A stretch of DNA of 34,359 nt from an uncultured Mycobacteriaceae bacterium (GTDB lineage Bacteria > Actinomycetota > Actinomycetes > Mycobacteriales > Mycobacteriaceae). The notes under the pieces are model-generated. The model saw only the letters and a program-made list of their open reading frames with translations. It had not been told where the DNA came from and did not search any database. The position numbers were made by a program, and so were the translations under genes. Positions 2,467-21,128 of this stretch are shown one piece after another. Within the stretch, counting starts at the first letter, position 1; each line of letters starts with the position of its first letter. The stretch is taken from contig CADEGF010000063.1 of assembly GCA_902826815.1 (NCBI GenBank), positions 1 through 34,359 of the forward strand, given 5' to 3'.

Positions 2467-4758
2467 CTACTCCCACACGACTTCGTCGGGCACCTTGTCG
2501 GACCTCAGCCCTCGCCAACTCGGCTGACGTAGACGGTCATCGGACGTGCGCTCGCTGTAGCGGACCTCCCCGACCAACTCCGGCCTGACGAACGTCACAC
2601 CCTTGGCGTCCTGCGTGGAAAGCCGCGCATTGAAAGGTGATTCGTCGGTCTCCAGCGGCTTGAGCACGCCCTTGAGCTTGGTCAGCTCCTTCTCGGTGAA
2701 GCCGGTGCCGACCCTGCCGACGAACTGCAGGCCGCCAGCCGGATCGCCCGGGTCGGGAATGCCGAGCATCAACGCGCCGATGCCGCTCGACCGGCCGCCC
2801 TCGCCTTGCCGCCAGCCACCGATCACCACTTCCTGGGTGTTCCAGATCTTGTCCTTGACCCACGACGACGACCGCCGGCCCGGCTGATAGGTCGAATCGC
2901 GCTTCTTGGCGATCACCCCCTCCCAGCGTTGCTTGCGCGCGTATTCGAGAGCCTCGGAGCCGTCGCCGGGCAGTTGGTCGCGAACGATGAGCCCGCCGCC
3001 GTCTGCCAACGCCTCCAGAAGGCGCCTGCGGTCGGAGTACTTGGCGCGCAACAGGGATCGGCCGTCCAGCTGCAGAATGTCGAACGCCCAGAACTCGACA
3101 CGGGTCGAGCGCGCACGGTTCTGCATCTCGCCAAAACTGGGCACACCGTTGGCGTCGAGCGCCACCGCCTCGCCGTCGAGGATGACGTGGTGGTCGGCGA
3201 GATCGGCCGCGATCGCTCGGAATTGCGGATACTCGTCGGTGACATCACGGCCGCGGCGGGAGCGCAACTTGAGCGTGCCGTGGTCGGCGTCGAGCAGCAC
3301 CCGGTAACCGTCCCACTTGCCTTCGAAAGCCCACTGCGTCTTCTTCAACTTCTCGACGGATCCTTCGGTCGACAGCATCGGCGCGAGATCGCCTGCAGTG
3401 GGCCGCTTCTGCTCCTTCATCCGATGGGCCAGCCAGTTCTTGCCATCGGTCTGGATCAGCGCATAGCGCCCGTCGATCCTGTCGCCGTGCAGGGTGACGA
3501 TCACCTCGCCGCCCTTTTCCGGGCCGTCGGGACCGTTGTCGTTGAACTTCTCGGTCTCATAGGTGCCGGAGTCCCAGATGATGACCTTGCCGCCGCCGTA
3601 CTCGCCCTTGGGAATCGACCCTTCGAACGTCCCGTATTCAAGGGGATGGTCTTCGGTGTGCACGGCGAGGTGGTTGACCGCCGGGGTGTCCGGCAGGTTC
3701 TTGGGCACCGCCCATGAGACCAGCACGCCGTTGCGTTCCAGCCGGAAGTCGTAGTGCAGGCGACGGGCATGGTGTTCCTGGATGACGAACCTGTCGTCGT
3801 TGCCCGTCTTGGGTGCCTTCTTCGGCACCGGCTCAGGGGTTTTCGCTGCATCGCGCATGCTGCGGTACGTCGTCAGGCTGTCCGACTCGGGTACCGCTTC
3901 GTCGAGGCCCGCCAGCAGGTCGCCCATCTCGGCGACGCGCTCGAGCACCTCGTCGTAGCGCAGATGCCGCAGCTTGGGATCCTCGATCTCGTCCCAAGTC
4001 CGCGGTGCGGCGACGGTCGGATGTTCGCGGCCGCGAAGCGAATACGGTGCGATCGTCGTCTTCGCGGAGCTGTTCTGGCTCCAGTCCAGGAACACCTTGC
4101 CGGTGCGCAGGCTCTTCGTCATCGTCGCCGTCACCCGTTTAGGCATCGACTTCTCCAGCTGCTGTGCAACGCGTTTGGCCAGCACGGAGGCGCCACGGGA
4201 ACTGATCGGCTCGTTCAGCGGCACGTACAGATGCAGTCCCTTGCTGCCGCTCGTCAGCGGATAGGTGGTCAGCCCGATGTCAGCGATGAGATCGCGGACC
4301 TCATGTGCGACCTCGCACAGTTGGCGGAACGTGACGTCATCGCCGGGATCGAGGTCGAACACGATGCGGGTCGCGGGTCCCGGTTTTCCGTCGACGAATC
4401 GCCACTGCGGAACGTGGACCTCGAGTGCGGCCTGCTGGCCGATCCATGCCAGCCCCTCGACGGTGTCGATGACCGGGTAGGTCGTGGTGCCGGACCGATG
4501 TGTGACGCTCTCTCGGTCCAACCAGTCGGGTGCGGAGCTGGCTAGCTGCTTTTCGAAGAAGGATGGCTCGTCGACGCCGTTGGGCCAGCGCTTGCGGGTC
4601 ACCGCACGGCCGATGATATGCGGGATCATTGCGTCGGCGATGTTGACGTAGTAGTCGAACACCTCGGCTTTTGTGACGGCCTTTCGTCGTCCACCCGTCG
4701 CCGGGTACAGCACTTTGTCCGGGTTTGTCAGCGTCACCCGGCCGATTCGATCCACCAC
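2467..4758 (-). CDS. ligD: Multifunctional NHEJ DNA ligase LigD (POL-PE-LIG)
   Basis: ATP-dependent DNA ligase of bacterial non-homologous end joining, 763 residues, with domains in the mycobacterial order. The primase-polymerase domain is about 1-290, with metal-binding Asp135 and Asp137 (FDLDPGD) and Asp225 (VFLDWSQN). The 3'-phosphoesterase is about 320-450, with the HHARRLHYDFRLE block (His329/330, His335, Asp337) and HTEDHPLEYGTFEG. The ligase is about 455-763. The adenylated lysine is Lys481 in EGKWDGYR, the same number as reported for the M. tuberculosis enzyme. Later ligase motifs are visible as ILDGEA, WAFDIL, EGVIAKK and WVKDK. LigD fills gaps, trims and seals ends brought together by Ku, encoded at 19.7 kb in this window. 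The start is a GTG (4756-4758) followed directly by a second GTG. Only 31 bp separates it from the divergent secreted-protein gene. Confidence 0.97.
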   Translation of the reverse strand: MVDRIGRVTLTNPDKVLYPATGGRRKAVTKAEVFDYYVNIADAMIPHIIGRAVTRKRWPNGVDEPSFFEKQLASSAPDWLDRESVTHRSGTTTYPVIDTVEGLAWIGQQAALEVHVPQWRFVDGKPGPATRIVFDLDPGDDVTFRQLCEVAHEVRDLIADIGLTTYPLTSGSKGLHLYVPLNEPISSRGASVLAKRVAQQLEKSMPKRVTATMTKSLRTGKVFLDWSQNSSAKTTIAPYSLRGREHPTVAAPRTWDEIEDPKLRHLRYDEVLERVAEMGDLLAGLDEAVPESDSLTTYRSMRDAAKTPEPVPKKAPKTGNDDRFVIQEHHARRLHYDFRLERNGVLVSWAVPKNLPDTPAVNHLAVHTEDHPLEYGTFEGSIPKGEYGGGKVIIWDSGTYETEKFNDNGPDGPEKGGEVIVTLHGDRIDGRYALIQTDGKNWLAHRMKEQKRPTAGDLAPMLSTEGSVEKLKKTQWAFEGKWDGYRVLLDADHGTLKLRSRRGRDVTDEYPQFRAIAADLADHHVILDGEAVALDANGVPSFGEMQNRARSTRVEFWAFDILQLDGRSLLRAKYSDRRRLLEALADGGGLIVRDQLPGDGSEALEYARKQRWEGVIAKKRDSTYQPGRRSSSWVKDKIWNTQEVVIGGWRQGEGGRSSGIGALMLGIPDPGDPAGGLQFVGRVGTGFTEKELTKLKGVLKPLETDESPFNARLSTQDAKGVTFVRPELVGEVRYSERTSDDRLRQPSWRGLRSDKVPDEVVWE

Positions 4759-4789: not shown

Positions 4790-5017
4790 GTGACGCGTTT
4801 TGTCGTGGCGTGCCTGGTTGCCGTGGCCGCTGTGCTCGGTTCGGCACCGCATGCCGTGGCCGACCCCGCTGACCTTGTGCCCTACTGCTCCGGCGATCAG
4901 ACTCCGATGGACGACAACTGCAGGCAGATGGCACACCAGACCTTCACGCACGGTTCGTCGGGCGCAAACCCGGAGACACCGTTCGGCACCAACCCTGGCG
5001 TCGAACCCGTCACCTGA
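4790..5017 (+). CDS. Small secreted mycobacterial protein
   Basis: This is a 75-residue exported protein. The first 25 residues form a signal peptide: a basic start (TR), then a hydrophobic core VVACLVAVAAVLG and a likely cleavage site after AVA in HAVADPAD. The 50-residue mature part has two cysteines (PYCSGDQ and DDNCRQM), which may form a disulfide. It resembles the many short Cys-pair secreted proteins of mycobacteria. No enzymatic motif is seen and the function is unknown. The start is a GTG close to the divergent ligD start, so the two genes must share a very short promoter region. Confidence 0.7.
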   Translation: MTRFVVACLVAVAAVLGSAPHAVADPADLVPYCSGDQTPMDDNCRQMAHQTFTHGSSGANPETPFGTNPGVEPVT

Positions 5018-5023
5018 TTACCG

Positions 5024-5080
5024 CGATTTCTGCACCAGGGTCGCGATTCCAAGTTATCCACAGCCCAGGTGCAGAACTCG
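5024..5080. repeat. Palindromic repeat copy A, upstream of the AbiEi/PD-(D/E)XK gene
   Basis: Imperfect inverted repeat. The left arm 5024-5040 reads CGATTTCTGCACCAGGG and the right arm 5064-5080 reads CCCAGGTGCAGAACTCG, pairing at 15 of 17 positions around a 23-nt centre. The centre holds TTATCCACA (5054-5062), identical to the classical DnaA-box sequence. Copy B follows the same gene, and a half-copy lies at 21084-21106. Confidence 0.75.
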
Positions 5081-5126
5081 GCGTCTGAGTTGCCAATTCG
5101 TCGGTACCAGCAGCCACGATCCGGAC

Positions 5127-5990
5127 ATGCCGGACCCATTCATCGGCGCCGAGGCCCTACGGAACGGCGCGCTGACCCGCGGACAATTGCGCTGGAATCA
5201 CAGCGCAGTGCTCCCACGCGTGTACCAGGACAAGGCCGCCGAGCGAACCCTCTACGAGAACACTTTCGCGACTTGGCTATGGACCGCTCGCAGGGGCGTG
5301 ATAGCCGGACGAGCAGCCGCGGCACTGCACGGAGCGAAATGGGTCGACGCCTCGACGCCCATCGAAGTCATCGCCGACCACACACGCCGTCGCAGAGGCG
5401 TCATCGTCCACGAAGAACGGATCGCCGCCGATGAGATTGTCTACGTGGGCGAACTGCCCGTCACGAGTGTTGCGCGCACTGCGCTCGACATCGCCCGTCA
5501 TCTGCCTCGAGACATCGCAGTCGCGCACCTCGACGCTTTGTCGGCGGCGACGGGCGTCACCACCGTTGACGTATTGGCCCTCGCCGAGAAGTACCGCGGC
5601 GCTCGTGGCGTCCGACGGGCACGAATCGCACTGGCGCTGATGGACGCAGGCGCGCAGTCGCCAGGGGAAACGCGATTGCGGCTGATCCTCATTGACGATG
5701 GGTTGCCCCCGCCGCGAACGCAGATCAGAGTGGCCGATGGCCACCAGGAGGCATTCCTCGATATGGGCTATGACGAGCCGATGGTCGGACTGGATTACGA
5801 GGGCTCTCACCACAGCGAGGTTCGCGGGCACTATGTGTACGACATCGGCCGCGCCGAGTTCATCGAGCGTGAGGGCTGGCTAGATATTCGCGTCGTCAAG
5901 GAGCACAGCAAGCGCTTCATCCTTCACCGGGTGCGCGAAGCGTTCGCACGGCGAGGCTGGACACCTCCGAGTTCTGCACGAGGGTCGTGA
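5127..5990 (+). CDS. AbiEi-like domain fused to a PD-(D/E)XK (Vsr/DUF559-like) nuclease domain
   Basis: This protein has 287 residues. Residues about 10-125 resemble AbiEi-type antitoxin or regulator proteins: a short winged-helix-like start (GALTRGQLRW), then GVIAGRAAAALHG and GELPVTSVARTALDIAR, the usual 'glPVTs-aRTalDla' block. Residues about 178-280 match the Vsr/DUF559 endonuclease fold: Glu181 (GETRLR), DGLPPPRTQI, Asp212 (AFLDMGY), Asp223-Tyr-Glu225 followed by Gly and His228 (LDYEGSHH), and a GWLDIRVV strand. The catalytic (D/E)-x-K position carries Glu instead of Lys, which is common in this family. No gene for an AbiEii toxin adjoins it. I chose ATG 5127 because the frame upstream runs through palindrome A and over the secreted-protein gene. 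Its last eight codons lie inside palindrome B. The family assignment is by motif only and the function is unknown. Confidence 0.75.
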   Translation: MPDPFIGAEALRNGALTRGQLRWNHSAVLPRVYQDKAAERTLYENTFATWLWTARRGVIAGRAAAALHGAKWVDASTPIEVIADHTRRRRGVIVHEERIAADEIVYVGELPVTSVARTALDIARHLPRDIAVAHLDALSAATGVTTVDVLALAEKYRGARGVRRARIALALMDAGAQSPGETRLRLILIDDGLPPPRTQIRVADGHQEAFLDMGYDEPMVGLDYEGSHHSEVRGHYVYDIGRAEFIEREGWLDIRVVKEHSKRFILHRVREAFARRGWTPPSSARGS

Positions 5991-6025
5991 AATTCGACGT
6001 CGACCAGCCTTGGCGCAGAACTCGG
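5967..6025. repeat. Palindromic repeat copy B, overlapping the 3' end of the nuclease-like gene
   Basis: The left arm 5967-5979 CCGAGTTCTGCAC pairs at 12 of 13 positions with the right arm 6013-6025 GCGCAGAACTCGG, across a 33-nt centre. The left arm and following GAGGGTCGTGA encode the C-terminal SSARGS and the stop codon of the gene at 5127-5990. The arm shares the TTCTGCAC core and AGGGTCG continuation with copies A and C. Confidence 0.72.
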
Positions 6026-6045
6026 CGAGCGCAGTGTCAAAGCCG

Positions 6046-7311
6046 CTAGTCCTCGAGTTCGATGGCGGGCAGCGGCGCCGTCGGCACCTCGGCGATGGCC
6101 AACTTGGCAGCGGAGTCGGTGGGGATGACATCGCCCCGCAGGGCCGCCAGCGCAGCGTTCGTCCCGACGTCATGGCTGGCCTTCTCGCTGAGCAGCCACC
6201 GCACTTCCAGTAGATCGCAGTAAGCCTGGATGGCGGTGCCCCTGTTGTTCACCGCGGCGTGCGCCAGGTGCTCGTACGGCGTCACCACCTCGATCACCCA
6301 GAGCCGCGCGGCGGTCGACTCGTCGACGTCGTGGCCCACCTCCCGACACAACTGCGCCTGATATGCCTGCAGGTCGCCGAGCAGAATCTGCGCCTGCCCC
6401 TCCCCGACATCCAGACCGGTGAGCTTCCGCAGACGCTGCGCGTGGTATCGGCGATCGCCAACGGCGACATGGATTCTGAGCTGGCTGGGCTCATCGGGGA
6501 CCGGCTGCAGCGAGACCTCTTCGACCGCGAAACCCAACTCGTTGAGGCGGCGGACGGTGCCCTCCACGCGGTAGCGGTCCGCGAAGCCGAAGACCGGTTC
6601 AGCAGTCAGGACATCCCACAGCGCCGTGTACCGGTCGCGCAGATGCTCAGCCTCGGCGATCAGCGTGTCCTGCAACTCCTCCGGTTGCTCGATTCGCTCG
6701 GCGAGATCGACCAGGCCCATCGCGACGTTCTCCACCATGATCTCGATGTCGTGCTGCCGCTGCCCGCGGCTCAGCGTCGGGTGCACCTCGGACGTCTCCG
6801 CGTCGACGAGCCACGCCTGCAGCGTTTGGCCGTCGCGCGAAAACAAGGTGTTCGCCAGCGAGCAGTCGCCCCAGAACACGCCGTGGCGGTGCAGCTCCAC
6901 CAGCAGGCCGGCCATCCCGTCCAGCAGCCGGGCCCGATGTTTCGGCTCGTCCGGCGGCAGCCGCATGAACAGTCGGCGGTACTGCCATGACCCCTCGAGG
7001 TATCGCGTGACCAGGATCGCGGTGTCGAACTCAGGCTGTAGCACCAAGCCGGCCGGTCGCACAGCGGGCAACTCCATCTCCTCGAGCCGCCGCAGAACGT
7101 CGTACTCTTTCGCCGCGAGCCGCGCGGGCATGTCTTTCACCGCCCACAGTGCGTCGTCGGCCTCGACGAACTTCACCAGGTGACGGCTGGGTCCGACGGC
7201 GAAGTCGCGCAGTGGAACATCAGGGACATTCCACTGCGACAACGGCCGGTCCCACGGGAGCGCGAGCAACCCCGGCGTCGACGCCCGGAGTCGAAACTCC
7301 GGTGCATTCAT
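6046..7311 (-). CDS. DUF4032 protein with a protein-kinase-like fold
   Basis: This 421-residue cytosolic protein is recognised as the DUF4032 family, whose N-terminal half resembles lipopolysaccharide or eukaryotic-type kinases. Visible kinase-like elements are AVKDMPARLAAKEYDVLRRL (candidate VAVK lysine and helix-C glutamate), the hydrophobic hinge stretch ILVTRYLEG, a catalytic-loop-like HGVFWGDCSLANTLF and a DFG-like WLVDAETSE. The C-terminal half is the DUF4032 domain proper. No biochemical role is known to me. The ATG lies one base after the stop of the ABC-transporter ATPase gene, so it is the last gene of the sugar-uptake operon. That position suggests it modifies a sugar or regulates uptake (inference). 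Confidence 0.75.
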   Translation of the reverse strand: MNAPEFRLRASTPGLLALPWDRPLSQWNVPDVPLRDFAVGPSRHLVKFVEADDALWAVKDMPARLAAKEYDVLRRLEEMELPAVRPAGLVLQPEFDTAILVTRYLEGSWQYRRLFMRLPPDEPKHRARLLDGMAGLLVELHRHGVFWGDCSLANTLFSRDGQTLQAWLVDAETSEVHPTLSRGQRQHDIEIMVENVAMGLVDLAERIEQPEELQDTLIAEAEHLRDRYTALWDVLTAEPVFGFADRYRVEGTVRRLNELGFAVEEVSLQPVPDEPSQLRIHVAVGDRRYHAQRLRKLTGLDVGEGQAQILLGDLQAYQAQLCREVGHDVDESTAARLWVIEVVTPYEHLAHAAVNNRGTAIQAYCDLLEVRWLLSEKASHDVGTNAALAALRGDVIPTDSAAKLAIAEVPTAPLPAIELED

Positions 7312-19620: not shown

Positions 19621-19656
19621 CTGTTTCGCCCATCCTGCGTGGGCCATACTGGCCTT

Positions 19657-20586
19657 ATGCGTTCCATCTGGAAGGGCTCGATCTCGTTCGGACTGGTGAA
19701 CGTCCCGGTCAAGGTCTACAGCGCGACCGAAGACCACGACATCAAGTTCCATCAGGTCCACGCGAAGGACAACGGACGCATCCGCTACAAGCGGGTGTGC
19801 GAGGTGTGCGGCGAGGTCGTCGAGTACCGCGACATCGCGAAGGCCTTCGAATCCGATGACGGCCAGATGGTGGTGATCACCGACGAGGACATCTCCACGC
19901 TTCCGGAGGAACGCAGCCGCGAGATCGAGGTCGTCGAGTTCGTGCCTGCGAGCGATATCGACCCGCTGATGTACGACAAGAGCTACTTCCTGGAGCCAGA
20001 AGGCAAGTCGTCGAAGTCCTATGTGCTGCTGGCCAAGACGCTGGCCGAAACCGACCGGGTCGCCATCGTGCATTTCGCGCTGCGCAACAAGACCCGGCTA
20101 GCGGCGTTGCGGGTCAAGGACTTCAGCAAGCGCGACGTGATGGTCATCCACACGCTGCTGTGGCCCGACGAGATCCGTGACCCCGACTTCCCGGTGCTGG
20201 ACAAGGAAGTAGAGATCAAGCCTGCCGAACTGAAGATGGCCGGACAGGTCGTCGAGTCGATGACCGACGACTTCCACCCCGAGCGGTTCGAGGACACCTA
20301 TCAAGAGCAGCTCAAGGAGCTGGTCGAAGCGAAACTCGAAGGCGGCGAGGCCTTTACCACCGAAGATGCAGAGCCGAAGGAACTCGACGAGACTGAGGAT
20401 GTCTCGGACCTGCTGGCCAAACTCGAAGCCAGCGTGAAAGCGCGCCGCGGCGGCGGCAGCTCATCGGACGACGGTCAGGCCAAGAAGGCCGCTAAGAAAG
20501 CACCCGCCAAAAAGACCGCAGCCAAAAAAGCCGCTAAGAAAGCACCCGCCAAGAAGACGGCCAAGAAGGCTGCCGCCAAGAAGTGA
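19657..20586 (+). CDS. ku: NHEJ DNA end-binding protein Ku
   Basis: Bacterial Ku homodimer subunit, 309 residues. It threads onto double-strand ends and recruits LigD (2467-4758). The core starts MRSIWKGSISFGLVNVPVKV and contains the family blocks FHQVHAKDNGRIRYKRVCEVCGE (two adjacent cysteines), SYFLEPEG, VLLAKTL and TLLWPDEIRDP. After about residue 260 comes a lysine/alanine tail made of repeated AAKKAPAKK units, encoded by an almost identical DNA repeat at 20488-20510 and 20530-20552. Such tails occur in fast-growing mycobacteria (for example M. smegmatis) and bind DNA; M. tuberculosis Ku is shorter (about 273). ATG 19657 is chosen because homologues begin at MRSIWKG. Confidence 0.97.
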   Translation: MRSIWKGSISFGLVNVPVKVYSATEDHDIKFHQVHAKDNGRIRYKRVCEVCGEVVEYRDIAKAFESDDGQMVVITDEDISTLPEERSREIEVVEFVPASDIDPLMYDKSYFLEPEGKSSKSYVLLAKTLAETDRVAIVHFALRNKTRLAALRVKDFSKRDVMVIHTLLWPDEIRDPDFPVLDKEVEIKPAELKMAGQVVESMTDDFHPERFEDTYQEQLKELVEAKLEGGEAFTTEDAEPKELDETEDVSDLLAKLEASVKARRGGGSSSDDGQAKKAAKKAPAKKTAAKKAAKKAPAKKTAKKAAAKK

Positions 20587-20917: not shown

Positions 20918-21083
20918 GCGAATTACTCCTATCCAGTGTGCGAACGGTACGGATTCCGTCGCCTTTATTTAACGTTAGCACTAATTTCGCACAGAAATTG
21001 GCCTCACCTGGGCTTTTTCGTCTGTCTGTGATGGAAATAACTTTGCTATCCGCAGTGATCTGCGCCTCACATTCTTCGGCCGC

Positions 21084-21106
21084 CGACTTCTGCACCGGGG
21101 TCGCGA
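21084..21106. repeat. Half-copy C of the palindromic repeat
   Basis: CGACTTCTGCACCGGGGTCG plus CGA matches the left arm and following bases of copy A (5024-5046) at 21 of 23 positions. No matching right arm is seen within about 80 bp. It lies in the promoter region of the SDR gene, 23 bp ahead of the KstR-type site and far from any nuclease-like gene. Confidence 0.65.
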
Positions 21107-21128
21107 CGGACCACCGCCTTAGATCAAC

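Follow-up and report, generated by a model that had tools for sequence, protein, structure and literature searches.

Units in which a gene is flanked by its own specific palindromes include those of the tyrosine transposases associated with repetitive extragenic palindromes (REP), or RAYTs. The available portions of two papers (PMC2817692, PMC3733652) describe solo palindromes dispersed in the genome and co-variation of enzyme and palindrome. They tie such spread to one enzyme class, the HUH RAYTs, while one repeat family (CGTC) is left without any enzyme (PMC3733652). A second group of interest is that of the EDxHD homing endonucleases, whose member I-Bth0305I forms a dimer on a target close to 60 bp long, according to the part available of a review (PMC3943268). 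The unit described here, a nuclease gene placed between two copies of a 63-bp palindrome, lies in a contig of 34,359 bp (CADEGF010000063.1, C63; “the window” designates this whole stretch) from the 6.87-Mb genome of an uncultured Mycobacteriaceae bacterium assembled in 141 contigs (GCA_902826815.1), a mycobacterium to judge from the named relatives that it matches. Its coordinates are given in Table 1. Members of its family are found repeatedly in the genus, many with a palindrome of their own. The reading that we favour, with a probability of about 0.6, is a REP/RAYT-like unit with homing-endonuclease chemistry, whose protein would bind, cut and copy the palindrome. Since no HUH transposase was found and the target is not split, the unit fails a defining feature of REP/RAYT systems and of EDxHD homing endonucleases, respectively. 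We regard it as a new class, convergent with REPtrons in its logic, and the different palindromes that match many of its relatives suggest a type of selfish DNA not described so far.

Table 1. Features of the unit and of its surroundings in the window.
Feature	Position	Strand	Remarks
Upstream palindrome, copy A	5021..5083	+	63 bp, type TTCTGC
DnaA-box-like 9-mer, TTATCCACA	5054..5062	+	inside copy A, ~70 bp before the start codon
Nuclease gene, 287 aa	5127..5990	+	between copies A and B
Downstream palindrome, copy B	5965..6027	+	63 bp, contains the stop codon of the nuclease gene
Left-half palindrome, same type	21081..21107	+	without right arm
LigD gene	2467..4758	-	left neighbour, insertion-site marker; Pfam
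Small gene, 75 aa	4790..5017	+	immediate left neighbour; stop codon is the left edge of the site
DUF4032/kinase-like gene	6046..7311	-	right neighbour, convergent; Pfam

The first-pass annotation of the window claimed that two inverted repeats with a common core bracket the gene. Both were confirmed by their arms (5024-5040/5064-5080 in copy A, 5967-5984/6008-6025 in copy B) and by the direct copies that they contain (5061-5083 and 6005-6027). A covariance model of the 63 bp, built from 23 copies with A and B included, scores each of the two at 64 bits. The pattern TTCTGCR-N15-45-YGCAGAA has 15 forward matches genome-wide (two nested at one place) versus 2 when the pattern is reversed. When folded as single strands of DNA, copies reach z values of -3.65 to -5.35 relative to shuffles; in one of four folds, 1 of 200 shuffles was equally good. 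The lone 21-of-23 match to the left end of copy A noted earlier also stood: the sequence from 21084 has 2 mismatches to the 23 bases that open copy A and 1 to an 18-base pattern, and no right arm follows. Half-copies sought across the whole own genome (44 places with up to 3 mismatches versus 15 in the reversed control) were discarded as mostly background.

The protein encoded between the palindromes features an AbiEi-like region (residues 1-173) and a Vsr/EDxHD nuclease domain (178-278) with E181, D212, H229 and D239, which we take to be the residues making up the EDxHD motif. In the AlphaFold model (predicted local distance difference test score 94) the best fold match of the second domain is I-Bth0305I. 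The protein has a predicted nuclease fold with an intact motif, the EDxHD catalytic residues being present in a predicted Vsr-like fold as in that endonuclease, and the fold comparison bears out both domain calls that the first-pass annotation had made by eye. No confident match was found over the whole length; the best among the Foldseek matches listed is 1zel (template modelling score 0.40). The window protein alone has no Pfam or NCBIfam match. Family members were aligned together as a set of 56, formed by the window protein and 55 of 61 intact relatives (six near-duplicates were left out): 32 match REase_MTES_1575, 23 AbiEi_1 and 10 DUF559, and the PADLOC AbiEi models match all 56. Pfam detects no HUH tyrosine transposase, whether the window protein (up to E 1) or the 56 members (up to E 0.01) are searched. 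The ratio of non-synonymous to synonymous substitution rates is 0.13-0.17 for the nuclease gene versus four relatives; the gene is under purifying selection.

The own genome yields 19 protein matches, interpreted as 16 gene places. Palindrome cores vary between these paralogues, yet they agree across both sides of one gene. Among the closer paralogues, twelve in number, seven are flanked by palindromes on either side and four on a single side; of these four, C25 is cut off by a contig end and the upstream flank of the broken C31b was imperfectly tested. The twelfth, C24, lacks a strong palindrome. At the stop codon of three more distant own relatives (C59, C52 and C9; L022-L024) there are other palindromes (GAGCAGACGC or GTGAGCGTGCG). 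In other species (L045, L054), the LigD/kinase site holds solo palindromes resembling these. The agreement between flanks extends to the relatives in the named loci, which come from Mycobacteriaceae, plus one Prescottella and one unplaced actinomycete metagenome-assembled genome. A permuted-pair test was entered by 69 of 70 loci (L156, which is partial, was left out), three of them without full flanks; 52 of the 66 loci with both flanks available reach the 95th percentile of permuted pairs. At the 57 loci longer than 12 kb that have full flanks, matched flanks are found at score 40 in 39/57 relatives versus 0/114 control genes from the same loci, and at score 32 in 46/57 versus 2/114. Chance was rejected on the control genes and the permutations. 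The stop codon is inside the palindrome in 38 of the 44 relatives having a downstream palindrome near it.

Related proteins have related palindromes. In the protein tree (drawn without the own paralogues C8c, C9, C59, C52 and C31b and without loci with broken frames), palindrome types go with clades. The similarity of one element's upstream palindrome to the downstream one of another increases with protein identity, being 13.6 at 25-45% and 46 above 85% (7 pairs), the latter almost the 48 found within elements (50 elements); none of 999 Mantel permutations matched the association. Type 1 comprises TTCTGC, TTCTAC and TTCGAC palindromes, and type 2 comprises AACGTGAACCCACTGCGA and similar ones. 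The palindromes measure 62-63 bp with an unpaired centre, and the ends are mostly CGNNGA...TCNNCG in both aligned types. That type 1 has a constant length is in part a product of selection, because only copies fitting a motif and length filter were kept; a 62-bp cut was imposed around each centre. The arms change in compensation. Columns 12 and 52 of type 1, for instance, pair as A-T in 11 of the 23 sequences and as G-C in another 11. Two-sided changes affect 50 cells versus 30.6 +/- 5.4 in shuffled type 1 alignments and 69 versus 27.9 +/- 4.4 for type 2, counts to be read knowing that related sequences can surpass shuffles even without structure; versions with slid partners give far lower counts in either type. 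The symmetry may be maintained because hairpins form or because a dimer recognises two half-sites, and the data favour neither.

Palindromes are also dispersed away from the gene. The type 1 covariance model (R1) has matches in 53 of 60 genomes of the genus, counted per strand. The own genome has 17 type 1 places at E <= 0.1, two of which are the flanking copies; genome G011 has 29 after three weak ones (E 0.003-0.05) were set aside, and G020 has 59 (E <= 0.001), of which four adjoin the gene. In the 27 G011 copies that were read the 63-bp frame is kept within a base or two and the flanks are unrelated. Some G011 copies are in tandem, ~94-104 bp apart. At one G011 locus (G011:C1:158900-162700, L260), five palindromes upstream of the gene and the downstream one include near-tandem copies with ~100-bp spacing, an arrangement resembling the bacterial interspersed mosaic elements of enterobacteria. 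Solo sites crowd near the gene: 6/21 are less than 100 kb from it in G011, where 0.7 would be expected (a density reached by 0.7% of random anchors), and 10/53 less than 200 kb in G020, where 3.5 would be expected (3.8% of anchors), a crowding that is not unusual at some other radii. Nine of 19 G011 solo sites lie between convergent genes, as read from GC content at third codon positions. Half-copies in the window, G159 and G186 end near the palindrome centre. The fourth match of that scan, which covered the window plus 28 chosen loci, is a shortened G011 copy that keeps the outer right end.

The abundance of each palindrome type tracks its cognate protein clade. Across 24 genomes (the own genome, G000, was dropped as the source of the protein queries, and E cut-offs differ between the hit counts), the best score of a clade-1 protein correlates with the number of type 1 hits (rho 0.61) and that of a clade-2 protein with type 2 hits (rho 0.71), the crosswise values being -0.11 and 0.11 (permutation p 0.0004). 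Dispersed solo palindromes follow the presence of the enzyme, as in REP/RAYT systems, with exceptions in both directions (G002, G004). The first-pass annotation had proposed a REP/RAYT-like link between palindrome and nuclease. It is supported by the matched flanks, by this tracking and by the dependence of sequence on kinship, which are the opposite of what a widespread palindrome unlinked to the protein would give.

The history of the insertion site was followed by seeking the DNA around the unit in 396 genomes of the genus. Twenty regions were taken and their junctions judged by eye; G083 was unread and G306, G153, G039 and G195 were unclassified. Across species, empty, left-half, apparent solo and filled versions of the site were found, as well as units of another type. 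LigD, the small gene (of which homologous stretches were aligned in other genomes) and the kinase gene are adjacent without palindrome in six genomes (G405, G271, G320, G346, G178 and G386). The site is filled by the unit in G388 and G028, whose syntenic genes are palindrome-flanked on both sides; neither is an orthologue devoid of palindromes at this locus, which would have spoken against the link. Only the left half is present in G159 and G186. The unit has another right neighbour in G080, G117, G119 and G316, and G137 carries, as judged by eye, an apparent degenerate solo palindrome where G080 has the unit. The same place is occupied in G013 by another type of protein together with a distinct palindrome pair of its own and in G054 (L045) by a solo palindrome of yet another type. 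A tree of 53 proteins, drawn by a quick method, places the G011 element within the LigD-site elements (support 96 and 93), yet it sits at another site. The neighbours at this second site look by sequence reading like a mannosyltransferase and an arginine deiminase in the two loci read (L116, L106). The site requires 12 changes on the tree, of which well-supported branches force 6, and its clustering does not exceed that of shuffled labels (126/500 as low). Units therefore appear to be gained and lost at a handful of preferred sites, a pattern to which exchange between paralogues may contribute. Note that the DUF4032/kinase-like gene is itself patchy, being matched in 16 of 60 genus genomes with the own one counted.

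The favoured reading can be developed into the following sequence of steps, which we infer from these data. The protein would bind its own 62-63 bp palindrome as a dimer with one AbiEi-like domain per arm, and the EDxHD/Vsr domains would make their cut in the unpaired centre or close to it. As the cut is repaired, by recombination with another copy or by end joining, the palindrome and sometimes the gene too would be copied. New copies would land elsewhere in intergenic DNA, frequently between convergent genes and frequently near the parent copy, while failed repair would leave half-palindromes and loss of the gene would leave solo palindromes. End joining is at hand in this genome because LigD is beside the unit and Ku is in the same window. 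The Ku gene (19639-20586) is ~15 kb from LigD and ~14 kb from the unit, and the half-palindrome is ~0.5 kb past Ku.

Copy A carries in addition a 9-mer that resembles a DnaA box. The motif TTRTCCACA is found upstream of 22/68 relatives versus 2/2499 control tiles and 0/66 downstream flanks, mostly ~70 bp before the start. Its enrichment was seen in L089-L158 and L318-L320. TGTGGAT is present outside the palindrome at -45 to -47 in 3/3 Arthrobacter genes and was not found upstream of 3/3 Tsukamurella genes. An extended form of the favoured reading, to which we give somewhat less than even odds, is that a large actinobacterial family of AbiEi-EDxHD nucleases forms a class of palindrome-spreading system whose enzyme is unrelated to RAYTs. 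Each member would maintain and spread its own ~62-63 bp palindrome, its expression or action being tied to replication through the DnaA-box-like site in the upstream copy or near it, and new types would follow divergence of the binding domain.

The alternative that survives best is plain homing, in which solo palindromes are cut by the nuclease and the gene enters through recombination between palindromes. These would be mere landing sites, spread earlier by something else. The predicted homing-endonuclease fold and motif, the degenerate solo of G137 facing the full G080 unit with the same right neighbour (by eye) and the use of the LigD site and of the second site by several lineages are in its favour. 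We consider it unlikely, for the target is not interrupted by the gene, the copies on either side of which are whole, and solo copies track the cognate clade, which suggests an ongoing linkage. A regulatory role is more doubtful still. The AbiEi-like domain would repress its own promoter via the upstream palindrome, solo copies being a regulon or marks of a defence response; the nature of the N-terminal domain, the upstream palindrome of most relatives and the enrichment of TTRTCCACA agree with this. It leaves unexplained the matching copy across the stop codon, the solo sites between convergent genes in G011, the tandem copies and the half-copies, and no Pfam-recognised partner toxin is found among the three neighbours scanned. 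Least probable is that the palindromes are ordinary host hairpins (terminators or gene-end signals) beside which a hairpin-processing nuclease sits by chance: they do lie at gene ends and fold, but control genes have no matched palindromes, the sequence is specific to the protein clade, and their role as terminators was rejected on a scan of 4900-6150 that returned no terminator-like site.

The unit resembles REP/RAYT systems in the gene placed between two copies of its own specific palindrome, in dispersed solos of which some are tandem, in the co-variation of enzyme and palindrome, and in the palindromicity that is kept. It differs in the enzyme, which is an AbiEi-like domain joined to a Vsr/EDxHD nuclease instead of an HUH/tyrosine transposase, in the length of the palindrome (62-63 bp versus 20-40), in the absence of the GTAG head and in its occurrence in Actinobacteria. 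RAYT pairs are described as inverted, whereas pairs are direct at 43 and inverted at 23 of 66 loci here, as assigned by best score, which is ambiguous for near-perfect palindromes. Compared to I-Bth0305I, the DNA-binding domain is different, the gene leaves its target unsplit between two whole copies, and the window protein has no match in the phage collection searched; I-Bth0305I resides in an intron, and the present gene does not. The N-terminal AbiEi-like domain and the cognate palindromes distinguish the protein from Vsr mismatch endonucleases. The type IV toxin-antitoxin system AbiE differs in that the AbiEi-like domain is fused here to a nuclease, and no AbiEii toxin gene was found among the three neighbours scanned (LigD, DUF4032/kinase and ABC-transporter), the sole row naming AbiEii being a below-cut-off AAA match of the ABC-transporter. 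The link between palindrome and nuclease has no description in the open-access literature searched, which hardly covers subscription papers and preprints. The ‘PATE’ element led to a Haloquadratum paper only. The portion available of a mycobacterial paper on PCR of repetitive elements (PMC10117815) has nothing bearing on such a unit.

Outside Mycobacteriaceae, matched flanks are found in 6/7 relatives (three Tsukamurella and three Arthrobacter, scores 56-95), each with another palindrome sequence; in four of these six, both flanks had a palindrome scored close to the gene, and in two a single flank did. The seventh, from Nonomuraea, has no matched flanks (score 22). The window protein has no match in 50,697 phage records, and none of the 67 stretches of viral contigs that matched a pattern was confirmed. 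Plasmid matches are limited to these same three genera, and two Tsukamurella ‘plasmids’ bear housekeeping genes beside the match (purB, gatA). A phage or plasmid element was rejected on these grounds. When an Arthrobacter relative is used as query, a 31% match appears in a single phage record, MT837503.1 (H13), of 6.7 kb and from human faeces.

An unrelated nuclease has here the layout of REP systems, many times in one genus and with many different partner sequences. The family provides dozens of natural protein-site pairs for studying the co-evolution of a nuclease and its 60-bp target, and offers candidate long-site nucleases. The prediction that follows is that each protein binds and cuts its own palindrome and not that of another. 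The family may also explain a layer of the repeats found in mycobacterial intergenic DNA.
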